Positions 3,284 through 5,797 of a stretch of DNA of 7,540 nucleotides are shown here, piece after piece. The notes beneath the pieces are model-generated. The model did not search any database and had not been told where the DNA came from. It was given only the letters and a program-made list of their open reading frames with translations. The translations under genes were made by a program, and so were the position numbers. This DNA is from Candidatus Zixiibacteriota bacterium (GTDB lineage Bacteria > Zixibacteria > MSB-5A5 > SM23-73-2): assembly GCA_030615745.1 (NCBI GenBank), contig JAUWYR010000063.1, forward strand, positions 1 to 7,540, given 5' to 3'. Position 1 is the first letter of the stretch, and each line of letters starts with the position of its first letter.

Positions 3284-3306
3284 CACTATCTCTTGATGCG
3301 TCCGCA
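3284..3306 (+). repeat. Dispersed element, short form, copy 1 (intergenic)
   Basis: It contains the core TCTTGATGCGTCCGCA. The whole 23-bp segment is an exact inverted match to 3856-3878 inside the sigma-like gene. It is the only one of five copies that touches no coding region. It lies just beyond the stop of the small membrane protein and faces copy 2 in inverted orientation across 36 bp. Confidence 0.85.
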
Positions 3307-3342
3307 TTTTTAATCTTGGTCGAGGTGTAACTTTTCATTTTC

Positions 3343-3376
3343 TGCGGACGCCGAAGGTCAAGAGACATCAAGAGAT
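3343..3376 (-). repeat. Dispersed element, long form, copy 2 (supplies the stop of the RHH gene)
   Basis: This 34-bp copy is an exact inverted match to 4093-4126. Relative to the short form, it carries 15 extra bases, TCTCTTGACCTTCGG, inserted after CTTGATG. Read on the minus strand it encodes the last five residues, SLDVS, and the TGA stop of the ribbon-helix-helix gene. With copy 1 it can form a stem of about 8 + 11 bp with a 15-nt bulge between the convergent genes. Confidence 0.88.
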
Positions 3377-3636
3377 TTGGGGATAGGTTCATCTATTTTC
3401 ATCTGCTTAACTTTTCTCCATTTCCTGATCACTTTGATATAATCGTCTAAAAGTCTTTTTTCTGCCTCAGATAGTCCTTCAAGAATTGGGATACCCACTC
3501 TTAAAAGTGTCCTGACAATGTCAGCCATTGTCCGGTCATACTTTTTAGCCAGATCCGAAATCTTTTCTTTGAGCTCATAGGAGACAAAAATATTTATGCA
3601 ATGTTCACCCCTCGTTTTTTTTATCCTCTTTTTCAT
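3358..3636 (-). CDS. Ribbon-helix-helix (CopG/MetJ-like) DNA-binding protein
   Basis: 92 residues. Residues 11-50 have ribbon-helix-helix form: a strand (CINIFVSY, 13-20), a helix (ELKEKISDLAKKYD, 21-34), a turn, then a helix (TMADIVRTLLRVGIPIL, 36-52). The basic N-terminus (MKKRIKKTRG) fits DNA binding. Residues 55-80 form a further charged helix; the tail KSLDVS and the stop codon come from the dispersed element at 3343-3376. RHH proteins bind operators as dimers, often on tandem sites, so self-regulation through the 21-bp tandem repeat at 4372-4414 is possible. No Shine-Dalgarno precedes the ATG: the 38 nt upstream are the A/T heptamer array, so initiation may depend on an A/U-rich leader or on coupling to the gene that ends at 3673. 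The true C-terminus before element insertion may have been longer. The domain call is strong; the target is unknown. Confidence 0.8.
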   Translation of the reverse strand: MKKRIKKTRGEHCINIFVSYELKEKISDLAKKYDRTMADIVRTLLRVGIPILEGLSEAEKRLLDDYIKVIRKWRKVKQMKIDEPIPKSLDVS

Positions 3637-3675
3637 TTTGAATTTTGAATTTTTAATTTTTAATTTTTAATTTTA
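3634..3675. repeat. Heptanucleotide tandem array, six units, bridging stop and start codons
   Basis: Six 7-bp units: CATTTTG, AATTTTG, AATTTTT three times, and AATTTTA. The first unit includes the start codon of the ribbon-helix-helix gene and the last contains the TAA of the upstream sigma-like gene, so the repeat fills the whole intercistronic gap. It removes any ribosome binding site between the two genes. Confidence 0.88.
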
Positions 3676-4338
3676 TTTGACCATATGTTTTTTTTGATGA
3701 GTGATTAAAATCTGAGGAGTTTTGATATCAACTCCATAGTCTTTTTTAAATAACTTAATCAACCTGCTCCAGGTCTGATTTTTTTTCTTTTTTTTGATCA
3801 ACTCATCCAAATTTTTTTTGTGCGGGCTTTTGCAGATGATACAATCCATATCTTTTGCGGACGCATCAAGAGATAGTGAAATTCCAAATCTTTTTTTGAC
3901 AAAATTTTTTAAGACAAGTTTTAATTTCTCTGTTGCATCTTTATGGATTTTTTCTAATTTATATTTTTTCTTGCCCAATATTTGAGAGATTTTTTCATAG
4001 GAAAAACAGTCATAATAAAAATATTGAATGAATCTTTTTTCCTCCTCGTTTAACTTATCTAATGCTTTTTCCACTGTGGTCTCCAATTCTATATCTCTTG
4101 ATGTCTCTTGACCTTCGGCGTCCGCATCTTTTTGGGAATCCGAAGGATTCGCAGAAAAGAATAGGTCTTTTTCAAAAGGGGAGCAGAAATCGACCTTTCC
4201 TTGTGCCCATTCTAAATATCTAATTCTCGGTCTTTTTTTCCTTCCATATCCTAAAGAGCAGGTGTAATAATCCACAAAATGATTTCCAAACCTTCTGTCT
4301 TTGCGAGAAGCAAAAGAGTTTTTTTTATCAGTTTTCAT
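3673..4338 (-). CDS. Sigma region 4-like HTH protein fused to a CxxC zinc-finger-like domain
   Basis: 221 residues. The N-terminal 60 are basic and aromatic (YGRKKRPRIRYLEWAQGKVD, 31-50) and not recognised. Residues 88-145 resemble sigma-70 region 4: ALDKLNEEEKRFIQYFYYD, then the helix-turn-helix FSYEKISQILGKKKYKLEKI and a helix ending near LVLKNF. Residues 166-218 carry C-x2-C-K-S-P, then LDELI, a helix around TWSRLIKLF and a terminal THQKKH; this CxxC...HxxxH layout is seen in small DNA-binding and terminase-small-subunit-like proteins. A regulator or phage-type DNA-recognition protein is inferred. Both linkers are repeat-derived: about 64-82 (hairpin 4136-4150 plus a 34-bp element) and 155-161 (a 23-bp element). 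The 8-A runs over residues 181-187 are possible slippage sites. The upstream site is weak (GCTGAG next to the ATG). The ribbon-helix-helix gene follows after 36 nt. Confidence 0.65.
   Translation of the reverse strand: MKTDKKNSFASRKDRRFGNHFVDYYTCSLGYGRKKRPRIRYLEWAQGKVDFCSPFEKDLFFSANPSDSQKDADAEGQETSRDIELETTVEKALDKLNEEEKRFIQYFYYDCFSYEKISQILGKKKYKLEKIHKDATEKLKLVLKNFVKKRFGISLSLDASAKDMDCIICKSPHKKNLDELIKKKKKNQTWSRLIKLFKKDYGVDIKTPQILITHQKKHMVK
3856..3878 (-). repeat. Dispersed element, short form, copy 3 (inside coding sequence)
   Basis: An exact 23-bp inverted copy of 3284-3306. In the sigma-like gene it encodes residues 155-161 (LSLDASA), the linker between the sigma-4-like helices and the CxxC domain. 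It is read sense relative to the core TCTTGATGCGTCCGCA and leaves the frame open. Confidence 0.9.
4093..4126 (+). repeat. Dispersed element, long form, copy 4 (inside coding sequence, antisense)
   Basis: An exact 34-bp inverted copy of 3343-3376. The gene reads it in the orientation opposite to copy 3, giving residues 72-82 (ADAEGQETSRD), a polar linker between the N-terminal segment and the sigma-4-like domain. The element therefore has an open frame on both strands. Confidence 0.9.
4136..4150. repeat. Short hairpin beside element copy 4, in coding sequence
   Basis: gaatcc and ggattc pair around gaa. It lies 9 bp from element copy 4 and encodes residues 64-68 (NPSDS region) of the same linker. 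CCGAAGG at 4140-4146 is also the inverse of CCTTCGG at 4112-4118 within the element. The 11-mer ccgaaggattc recurs at 4590-4600, where its AAGGA forms the likely ribosome binding site of the 4608 gene. Confidence 0.6.
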
Positions 4339-4371
4339 CTCAGCAAAAAAAGTCTATCTTTAAAAAAAGAC

Positions 4372-4414
4372 AATCACTTTTCTGTCACCTGAAATCACTT
4401 TTATTTCACCTGAA
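4372..4414. promoter_or_regulatory. Tandem 21-bp direct repeat, candidate operator of the 4338 gene unit
   Basis: AATCACTTTT-N3-TCACCTGAA occurs at 4372-4393 and 4393-4414, with a period of exactly 21 bp, two turns of B-DNA. Each unit contains a near-palindrome, (t/g)TCACCTGAA. It lies 34-76 bp upstream of the sigma-like start codon on that gene's side. Tandem same-face sites suit a ribbon-helix-helix regulator, and the second gene of this unit encodes one; the link is inferred. Confidence 0.4.
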
Positions 4415-4459
4415 GCTGGGCTCCCTTTATTCTCTGTTGATCTTAAGACTAACAGATAG

Positions 4460-4475
4460 CTGAACATCCGTTCAG
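4460..4475. repeat. Small inverted repeat in the divergent control region
   Basis: CTGAAC-ATCC-GTTCAG, 6-bp perfect arms with a 4-nt loop, lies between the divergent gene starts at 4338 and 4608. It could be an operator or an mRNA hairpin. Nothing recognisable ties it to a known regulator. Confidence 0.35.
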
Positions 4476-4503
4476 AGCAAGTTTTTGAACTTTAGCAGGA
4501 AAT

Positions 4504-4532
4504 AAAATATTTCTTTTGATTTTGAAACTCAA
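4504..4532 (-). promoter_or_regulatory. Candidate promoter for the sigma-like/RHH unit
   Basis: On the minus strand, TTGAGT (complement of 4527-4532), a 17-nt spacer and TATTTT (complement of 4504-4509). It would give a leader of about 160 nt that includes the inverted repeat at 4460 and the 21-bp tandem repeat. It overlaps the plus-strand candidate at 4516-4543. Consensus match only. Confidence 0.3.
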
Positions 4533-4543
4533 TCCCTTATATT
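4516..4543 (+). promoter_or_regulatory. Candidate promoter for the 4608-5505 unit
   Basis: TTGATT at 4516-4521 and TATATT at 4538-4543, with a 16-nt spacer, lie 65 nt upstream of the start codon of the DUF5668-like gene. Consensus match only, in A+T-rich DNA. Confidence 0.35.
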
Positions 4544-4607
4544 AGCGTAAGTTTTAAAAGATTGGTCATCAAAAAGAAAGGGGTTTTTCCCGAAGGATTC
4601 ATAGAAT

Positions 4608-4802
4608 ATGAAAAATAAAGAGTCTCGAAATGGTAGTATAATTGGTGGGTTAATACTTTTGGGATTGGGAATTTTGTTTTTGTTAAACAACTGGGATATT
4701 CTTGATTTCGAAGAGAGTTGGCCTTTAATTTTAGTTATCATAGGTATAGGTCTTATCATAAAAGCCTCCAAAAAATCAAAACAGGACAAAAACCAATTTT
4801 GA
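4608..4802 (+). CDS. Small two-TM protein, LiaF/DUF5668-like transmembrane region
   Basis: 64 residues. AAGGA at 4593-4597 lies 10 nt before the ATG. Residues 11-26 (IIGGLILLGLGILFLL) and 39-53 are two hydrophobic helices linked by NNWDILDFEESWPL. The N-N-W turn and the WPLILVIIGIGLI second helix are typical of the LiaI/LiaF-like or DUF5668 transmembrane module. Members are inner-membrane proteins, in some cases linked to envelope-stress sensing; no partner or ligand can be read here. The tail is short and basic (KASKKSKQDK). The CPBP protease gene starts 31 nt downstream on the same strand, so the two are probably co-transcribed. The ribosome binding site lies in an 11-mer shared with the hairpin at 4136-4150. 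The opposite strand is also open, but that frame has no recognisable product. Confidence 0.75.
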   Translation: MKNKESRNGSIIGGLILLGLGILFLLNNWDILDFEESWPLILVIIGIGLIIKASKKSKQDKNQF

Positions 4803-4825
4803 AACCGCCTACCTATTCGCTCAGG

Positions 4826-4844
4826 ATCTCTTGATGCGTCCGCA
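4826..4844 (+). repeat. Dispersed element, short form, copy 5 (at the CPBP gene start)
   Basis: The 19 bp are identical to the shared part of the short-form copies. The ATG inside the core (4834-4836) is in frame with the CPBP protease and has AGGA 7 nt upstream, so the element probably provides the initiation codon. An alternative ATG lies just past its end at 4846, but 19 nt from that AGGA. Confidence 0.85.
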
Positions 4845-5505
4845 AATGAAGAAAGGCATCCTGCCCACTATAACTTTATTATTTTTCCTTTTAATCGGCT
4901 GGCCCTTACTATCTTATCTGGTTATGAGCCAGGCAGAGGAGGAGATTACTGTAGCACTGGTCAACCCAACTATCCAGCTTTATCTTCCAACCATCATAAT
5001 AGAATCTTTAATCTTTTTGTTAATCTTTTTAGTGCTTAAAAGAGAAGGAGAGAATTTAAAAGTTGTGGGCTGGAGAAATCTCACTTTTCAAAACATTTTA
5101 ATAGGCTTTGTTTTCTTGATATTCGCAAATTTAGTCCTTTTAATAATCACAAAACTTTTCAGTGTAACCCAGCCTGCTGAGATTAAATACCTTCTGCCAA
5201 GAAATACAACTGATAGAATATTCTGGACTTTAATGTCATTAACCGCAGGAATAGCTGAGGAAACTGGTTTTCGTGGATACGTTTTAACAAAGCTTAATCT
5301 TTTTTTTAAAAACTGGTGGGCAACTGTTATAATATCCTCTTTTTTCTTCGGGATAGGGCATTTTTATCAGGGATTGGGAGGAATGATCCTTACCGGGGTT
5401 TATGGGCTTTTGTTCTGTCTCCTTTTCATCTGGAGGAAGAGCCTTTACCCTGGCATTATAGCTCATTTTTTACATGATGCCTCGGTTCTTTTCATCCCGA
5501 TCTAA
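4834..5505 (+). CDS. CPBP-family intramembrane glutamic metalloprotease (CAAX protease/Abi)
   Basis: 223 residues from ATG 4834, the usual size for this family. Several hydrophobic helices (about 8-30, 50-69, 86-108, 128-140, 161-180, 185-200) make it polytopic. The three family motifs are present: EE142-143 with R147 (AEETGFRGYVL), H176 in FFFGIGH, and H211...D215 in HFLHD. Related enzymes include the eukaryotic Rce1 CAAX protease; bacterial members include bacteriocin self-immunity and export or maturation proteases. The substrate here is unknown. The start is chosen for AGGA (4823-4826) at 7 nt; TTG 4831 and ATG 4846 are alternatives. The first residues, MRPQ, come from the dispersed element and are probably not part of the conserved protein. 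It is the second gene of a unit with the DUF5668-like protein. A hairpin begins 9 nt after the TAA. Confidence 0.9.
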   Translation: MRPQMKKGILPTITLLFFLLIGWPLLSYLVMSQAEEEITVALVNPTIQLYLPTIIIESLIFLLIFLVLKREGENLKVVGWRNLTFQNILIGFVFLIFANLVLLIITKLFSVTQPAEIKYLLPRNTTDRIFWTLMSLTAGIAEETGFRGYVLTKLNLFFKNWWATVIISSFFFGIGHFYQGLGGMILTGVYGLLFCLLFIWRKSLYPGIIAHFLHDASVLFIPI

Positions 5506-5513
5506 ATTAAATA

Positions 5514-5543
5514 GTTGCGTCAGGACTGAGGTCCTGACACAAC
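5514..5543. repeat. Palindrome, copy 2 of the 504-527 element
   Basis: GTTGCGTCAGGAC pairs with GTCCTGACACAAC around TGAG, 13-bp arms with one mismatch. Bases 5519-5543 are an exact 25-bp inverted copy of 501-525. It starts 9 nt after the protease stop. No T-run follows, so it is a 3'-end hairpin rather than a classical terminator. Confidence 0.85.
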
Positions 5544-5710: not shown

Positions 5711-5737
5711 CCTATCATAAAAAATTCAGATGTAGAT

Positions 5738-5793
5738 GTAGGTCGGATTTCCAAATCCGACTATAGAAAGTCGATTTTAGAAAATCGACCTAC
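5738..5793. repeat. Pair of inverted GTAG-headed REP-like hairpins (BIME-like)
   Basis: Left half: GTAG at 5738-5741, then GTCGGATTT-CC-AAATCCGAC (5742-5761). Right half: GTCGATTTT-AG-AAAATCGAC (5770-5789) followed by CTAC (5790-5793), the inverse of GTAG. Each hairpin has 9-bp perfect arms and a 2-nt loop, and the outer GTAGGTCG/CGACCTAC also pair. A GTAG head before a palindrome, in inverted pairs, is the known layout of bacterial REP/BIME sequences mobilised by RAYT transposases. It ends 4 bp before the stop codon of the convergent gene. No RAYT gene is in the window. Confidence 0.8.
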
Positions 5794-5797
5794 TCTT

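Follow-up and report, generated by a model that had tools for sequence, protein, structure and literature searches.

Introduction

In cyanobacteria, the SDRs (small dispersed repeats) have been called 'very small mobile repeated elements' (Elhai et al. 2008, as referred to in PMC4390886, PMC3116915, and PMC2884548), and one of them, SDR5, is stated in papers citing Elhai et al. 2008 to insert precisely inside another short sequence, HIP1. For REPs, movement as doublets is assumed (PMC3116915).

The stretch of DNA analyzed here, called the window, is 7,540 nucleotides long and corresponds to a whole contig (C71) of a bacterial genome of 2.28 Mb (74 contigs, 98.6% complete). It contains five copies of a short repeat that, according to an earlier note written without database searches, could represent a new family of very short mobile elements lacking a transposase. 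This reading is supported and is the best backed of those considered below. On balance, we lean towards mobile elements of a new family, ultra-short (15-18 bp) and non-autonomous, which would travel as single-stranded hairpins with the help of a trans-acting enzyme; this enzyme has not been identified, the movement step is inferred, and the named SDR sequences were not compared.

Genome Samples and Analysis

About 1.12 Mb of the genome itself (G000) and 0.65 Mb of a same-genus sister genome (G001) were sampled. The genome-wide number of units is a rough extrapolation from those counted in half of the genome, part of this half having been picked around known copies. To find empty sites, unit-bearing genes were translated and aligned against the sister genome. 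The share of sequence in ORFs was derived from a simple greedy ORF call.

Results

Five Copies in the Window

The earlier note had claimed five exact copies on both strands, and all five were confirmed, in position as well as in strand. The 16-mer core had three matches in the window, versus 0.02 in shuffled sequences. The lengths of 19 and 34 bp that had been proposed held only in part, as the repeat ends at 18 bp (TCTCTTGATGCGTCCGCA) or 33 bp; the leading A and a longer 23-bp match (CACTA...) consist of flanking target bases outside the 18-bp unit. The features are as follows (a slash marks the junction):

3289..3306, + strand: 18-bp element, TCTCTTGA followed by the hairpin TGC-GTCC-GCA (loop GGAC on the other strand); intergenic
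3343..3375, - strand: 33-bp nested element, whose TGA is the stop codon of a 92-aa ORF (3358-3636, - strand)
3351..3365, - strand: inner 15-bp element TCTCTTGACCTTCGG, at the junction CTTGATG/CGTCCGC
3856..3873, - strand: 18-bp element, in frame (SLDASA), in a sigma-region-4-like gene (3673-4338, - strand)
4094..4126, + strand: 33-bp nested element, in frame on the opposite strand (DADAEGQETSRD), in a linker of the same gene
4104..4118, + strand: inner 15-bp element TCTCTTGACCTTCGG, nested in 4094..4126
4139..4156, - strand: second-family double mini-hairpin TTCTGCGAATCCTTCGGA, 18 bp, in the sigma-region-4-like gene
4589..4606, - strand: second-family copy TTCTATGAATCCTTCGGG, 18 bp, intergenic
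4827..4844, + strand: 18-bp element at the start of an Rce1-like protease gene, with a possible ATG at 4834

The sigma-region-4-like ORF encodes 221 aa with a match to sigma-70 region 4, and thus carries two in-frame copies of the first family. The copies had been proposed to supply a stop codon, two protein linkers and a start codon. This held, with the start codon being only a possibility: the ATG at 4834 follows an AGGA by 7 nt in front of the Rce1-like ORF, which has another ATG of its own, at 4846, that could also serve. The two forms had been thought to differ by a clean 15-bp insertion after CTTGATG. The 15-bp difference is real; it is a second element, TCTCTTGACCTTCGG, nested between the TG and the C of the 18-bp element, and not an expansion, so that the long form reads TCTCTTGATG, TCTCTTGACCTTCGG, CGTCCGCA, i.e., a 15-bp unit within an 18-bp unit.

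Other repeats were also observed in the window. An inverted pair of REP-like hairpins (GTTGTGTCAGGACCTCAGTCCTGAC) lies at 501-525 and 5519-5543, with similar copies in relatives, and a double hairpin with a GTAG tag (GTAGGTCGGATTTCCAAATCCGAC...AAAATCGACCTAC), of which the sister genome has many copies, lies at 5730-5794. A degenerate heptamer array (CTACTGTTTACTGTC...), spaced in multiples of 7, extends over 2690-2800 and is present in relatives too.

A Constant 8-mer Followed by a Covarying Mini-Hairpin

In the 1.12 Mb sampled, TCTCTTGA was found at 214 sites and 131 units were counted. Each unit is composed of this constant 8-mer and then a mini-hairpin with a stem of 2-3 bp and a loop of 3-4 nt, for a total of 15-18 bp; read on the opposite strand, it ends in TCAAGAGA. 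The hairpins observed were TGC-ATAC-GCA, TGC-GTCC-GCA, TGC-TTCC-GCA, TCG-ATAC-CGA, TCC-ATAC-GGA, TC-TTC-GA and CC-TTC-GG, among others, and the sister genome has a stem of its own, TTC-ATAC-GAA. A fixed 19/34-mer model was discarded, because the hairpin behind the constant 8-mer varies across the genome. The 16-mer core, for which a genome search and a count of forms had been proposed, covers only a small part of the family.

At 78 out of the 166 sites of the first sample, TCTCTTGA was followed by a hairpin with 3 bp in the stem and 3-4 nt in the loop; across 300 other 8-mers, the share averaged 5.6% and did not exceed 15%. Among 18-mers with an NTNC loop, which fall into eight main stems, 91 out of 102 were paired (background, 2.1%), and when the 3' arms were shuffled among distinct forms, none of 20,000 trials reached the observed pairing. 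Loops read on the opposite strand were G-N-A or G-N-A-N in 76 out of 79 cases, compared with about 6% of all such hairpins. GNA-type loops are unusually stable in DNA, and 'GNA trinucleotide loop' mini-hairpins are cited in the literature. Nearest-neighbor hairpin energies were small (0 to -1.6 kcal/mol), and most forms were not better than shuffles; the proposal that the unit folds as single-stranded DNA therefore rests on covariation and loop type.

Precise Insertion without Target Duplication

Units insert whole and precisely, without target duplication, at a target of the C-N-W-A type, directly after the A. The comparison of occupied and empty sites in orthologous genes, which had been proposed as a check, revealed eight genes whose same-genus orthologues lack exactly the element (gap of 15, 18 or 33 bp), as in DAL[CVCIKR]EDDP versus DALEDDP, or CKSG[ANASRD]KIILGRD versus CKSGRIILGRD in the sister genome. 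Because the length of the insertion equals that of the unit, no target was duplicated. For the sigma-region-4-like gene of the window, same-order orthologues lack roughly the length of the element at 3856..3873.

Paralogous empty sites likewise showed clean insertion without target duplication. For the junction CTTGATG/CATACGC, the sampled genome had 9 occupied and 30 empty copies; the corresponding counts were 3 and 11 for CTTGATG/CGTCCGC, 1 and 8 for CTTGATG/CTTCCGC, and 2 and 3 for TGCGAAG/CATCTTG. The target is characterized by C at -4 (59 out of 90), T or A at -2, A at -1, and W at +2 and +3, from which the CCTTCGG subtype departs.

Genes, intergenic DNA, other repeats and the units themselves all serve as insertion places. 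Double nesting was observed, with an 18-bp unit after CCTTCGG (L131, L133), and both genomes contain head-to-tail tandem copies. Two different small units have hit a longer repeat, GGAGTGTGCGAAG/CATCTTGACGATAAAGCTTTAGCTTTAC (L049, L045, L135:7600-7650), at GCGAAG/CATC, a shared hot spot within a TGC-GAA-GCA mini-hairpin.

Copy Number and Distribution

The genome contains 12 instances of the 16-mer core, which are spread over eight contigs in unrelated contexts; the whole family is extrapolated to about 200 copies. The earlier note had named two outcomes that would refute its reading, absence of the core elsewhere in the genome and segmental duplication of this locus as the source of all copies. 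Neither was met, the second because insertion is evident from both the orthologous and the paralogous empty sites. TCTCTTGA itself is over-represented (98 observed versus 13.8 expected in 350 kb), and without the hairpin it occurs at about chance frequency (214 sites: the 131 units, plus nested ones).

The burst is essentially confined to this genome. The form TCTCTTGATGCNTNCGCA was found 75 times here and once in the sole same-genus genome, and was absent from 96 other relatives. The sister genome has about five copies at three loci, two of which hold them in tandem, and no convincing copies were found in the phylum outside the genus. A species-wide search gave eight exact matches in 85,000 species, which is not above chance (an estimated 15 or so expected). 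Viruses, phages and plasmids yielded no convincing relatives, the sole viral hit being an isolated match in an apparent phage tail protein.

Taken together, the copies were not significantly clustered along the genome (p 0.28). Neighbors within 3 kb were of the same subtype in 15 out of 39 cases, versus 5.1 expected (p ~2e-4), and all five window copies belong to the GGAC-loop subtype, which is uncommon (14 out of the 131 sampled units). Together, these two observations suggest local copying, and spread is likely to be partly local. A strand bias with GC skew, as lagging-strand transposition of single-stranded DNA would predict, was detected overall (82 out of 131, p 0.005), with no significance outside genes (26 out of 44); it is weak and confounded with gene orientation, and was left out of the evidence. 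Its weakness speaks against the movement preferred here.

Some individual loci may be mentioned. One unit lies just upstream of an apparent tRNA gene (L121:19136-19153; GCGGGTGTAATTCAGCGGTAGAATG...), and in the sister genome tandem units lie directly before ruvC, near yebC (L177, G001 C78:6271-6296). Five copies of a GGAA-loop unit (L024, L025, L029, L032, L034) occupy one position of a longer repeat, between AATGTTTCCAAAATAACATT and TATTTTAGCCTGTCATTGCG, and this unit was therefore carried along by another repeat family.

Units inside Genes

Most units were found in ORFs (87 out of 131), with 8 at ORF edges and 36 in intergenic DNA; ORFs make up 88% of the sequence. None of the 87 intragenic copies uses the reading frame that contains TGA, and the 17-bp copies were all intergenic (3 out of 3). 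Lengths of 15, 18, 33 and 51 bp keep the frame, by which copies may persist in genes, with the resulting peptides supposedly tolerated in linkers and surface loops.

A Second Family of Double Mini-Hairpins

An unbiased scan for adjacent mini-hairpins also revealed the dispersed forms TTCTATGAATCCTTCGGA (12), TTCGAAGAATGCTTCGCA (9) and CTCGAAGAGTCCTTCGGA (7). These represent a second family of 18-bp double mini-hairpins, for example TTC-TAT-GAA followed by TCC-TTC-GGA. TTCTATGAATCCTTCGGA was counted 19 times in this genome and was absent from 128 others; two copies of it, each slightly changed, lie in the window. The same scan of the sister genome gave nothing comparable, and no empty orthologous sites were found in the sampled sister stretches.

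The target is similar to that of the first family (C at -4 in 13 out of 16, p 1.5e-7), and both families interrupt each other at exact positions. The junction TTCTATG/AATCCTT was occupied 3 times and empty 15 times, and TTTTCTA/TGAATCC was occupied once and empty 4 times. Two adjacent hairpins are present in the second family, whereas for the first this layout depends on accepting TC-TCTT-GA as one of the hairpins.

Discussion

Proposed Movement and Candidate Enzymes

A hairpin-reading enzyme acting on single-stranded DNA is inferred from the precise unit, the conserved structure, the absence of target duplication, the short one-sided target, and the nested and tandem copies. Such a trans-acting enzyme, for which there is no biochemistry, would recognize the hairpin in single-stranded DNA in the manner of HUH enzymes (IS200/IS605, REP-RAYT or rolling-circle types). 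It would cut at the ends of the unit and join the piece, or a copy of it, beside a C-N-W-A site, often close by; head-to-tail tandems would fit a rolling-circle or end-joining variant.

A bolder reading is somewhat less likely than not. It holds that these are the smallest transposable units described, 15-18-nt GNA-loop mini-hairpins read largely by structure by an undescribed enzyme, without target duplication, and forming, within one genome, several tag families that have a common target preference and nest into composites.

Three RAYT-like Y1 transposase genes above the Pfam cut-off were found in this genome, each between inverted hairpins of its own, e.g., GTAGGTCAGGAGCC...GGCTCCTGACCTAC:

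L181, G000 C17:32268: RAYT-like Y1 gene
L182, G000 C25:17668: RAYT-like Y1 gene
L183, G000 C65:20014: RAYT-like Y1 gene

The three loci look like ordinary REP-RAYT systems. No RVT_1 reverse transcriptase was detected in this 98.6% complete genome or in the sister genome, in a search whose control worked. A search for IS91-type Y2 transposases gave no match, but its control was silent, so that this result is uninformative.

Alternative Explanations

It seems unlikely that the units are REP-like and depend for their movement specifically on one of the three RAYT (Y1) transposases. The presence of these genes speaks for it, as does the combination of a tag and a hairpin, the lack of target duplication and the short one-sided target, which resemble REP/IS200 logic. 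However, the flanking hairpins of each RAYT gene are unrelated to the family and no TCTCTTGA units lie within 1.5 kb of the three genes, which argues that the RAYTs serve those REPs and not the TCTCTTGA family. Moreover, Y1 genes were present in seven out of seven relatives searched, yet copies of the element are few or absent there, and the units have stems of 2-3 bp, no long palindromes, and no GTAG or CGTC tag.

It is also improbable that no dedicated enzyme is involved and that a hairpin-prone sequence was copied nearby by replication-fork template switching or end repair. The excess of same-subtype neighbors and the tandem copies would agree with this. However, the ends are exact every time, at orthologous as well as nested sites, there is a target motif, and copies occur genome-wide; template switching would predict variable tracts carrying flanking sequence.

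Retro-insertion, i.e., insertion of the reverse transcript of a small hairpin RNA, appears very unlikely. Group II intron retrohoming shows exact insertion without target duplication, but the search for RVT_1 gave no match in either genome and no known RNA family was found in the window.

A non-mobile functional word multiplied by selection (uptake sequence, Chi-like sequence or regulator site) would account for the over-representation of TCTCTTGA and is practically ruled out by the near-chance frequency of the hairpin-less 8-mer and by the empty sites, which show insertion. An assembly, adaptor or barcode artefact, conceivable in a draft of 74 contigs with oligonucleotide-sized units, can be set aside almost entirely, given the covarying stems, the avoided stop frame, the nested copies and the roughly five copies of the second genome.

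Implications

If the preferred reading, a trans-mobilized single-stranded hairpin, is true, the units are among the smallest mobile DNA known. A length of 15-18 bp is near the lower limit for a sequence able to carry its own recognition site. The units multiply within genes at 5-6 codons per insertion and would naturally give rise to short in-frame insertions in proteins. The covarying stems offer a direct handle on the structure read by the enzyme not yet identified, and the exact occupied and empty sites in the sister genome make the process testable.

Comparison with Known Systems

The SDRs resemble these units in being dispersed and about 20 bp long and, to judge from the citing papers, in lacking their own gene; they differ in belonging to another host group, the cyanobacteria. 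What characterizes SDR-like repeats, dispersed units of about 20 bp with sites empty in relatives, was met here by the eight exact orthologous empty sites and the paralogous ones.

REPs and REPINs with their RAYTs (PMC3733652, PMC3116915) also have a tag beside a hairpin, are dispersed and lack an autonomous gene, and some REPs lie within genes and supply stop codons. However, the GTAG/CGTC tag of REPs is missing, the constant tag being TCTCTTGA or, on the other strand, TCAAGAGA. REPs are 20-40 bp palindromes, whereas these units have 15-18 bp and 2-3-bp stems; REPs are mainly extragenic, whereas most units here lie inside ORFs; and REPs flank their own RAYT, whereas these units adjoin none of the three. 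REPs are also assumed to move as doublets, whereas these elements are single units, which counts against our preferred reading.

Yeast mitochondrial GC clusters and related hairpin elements (PMC4478555) are likewise tiny, spread within their genome, and merge and shuffle into new composites. GC42, with 42 nt and a putative target duplication, is mitochondrial, whereas the present units are bacterial, shorter and without duplication. Rickettsia palindromic elements, to which the earlier note had likened the repeat, are also accepted in frame in many unrelated genes, and the likeness holds solely for this tolerance: they measure about 100-150 bp, whereas these units add 5-6 codons. MITEs are defined by terminal inverted repeats and target-site duplication, which these units do not meet, the insertion being as long as the element.

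With the mechanism not settled, we place the family among the very small mobile repeats. It functions like the cyanobacterial very small repeats, REPs and mitochondrial hairpins but fails the tested features of REPs, MITEs and Rickettsia palindromic elements.
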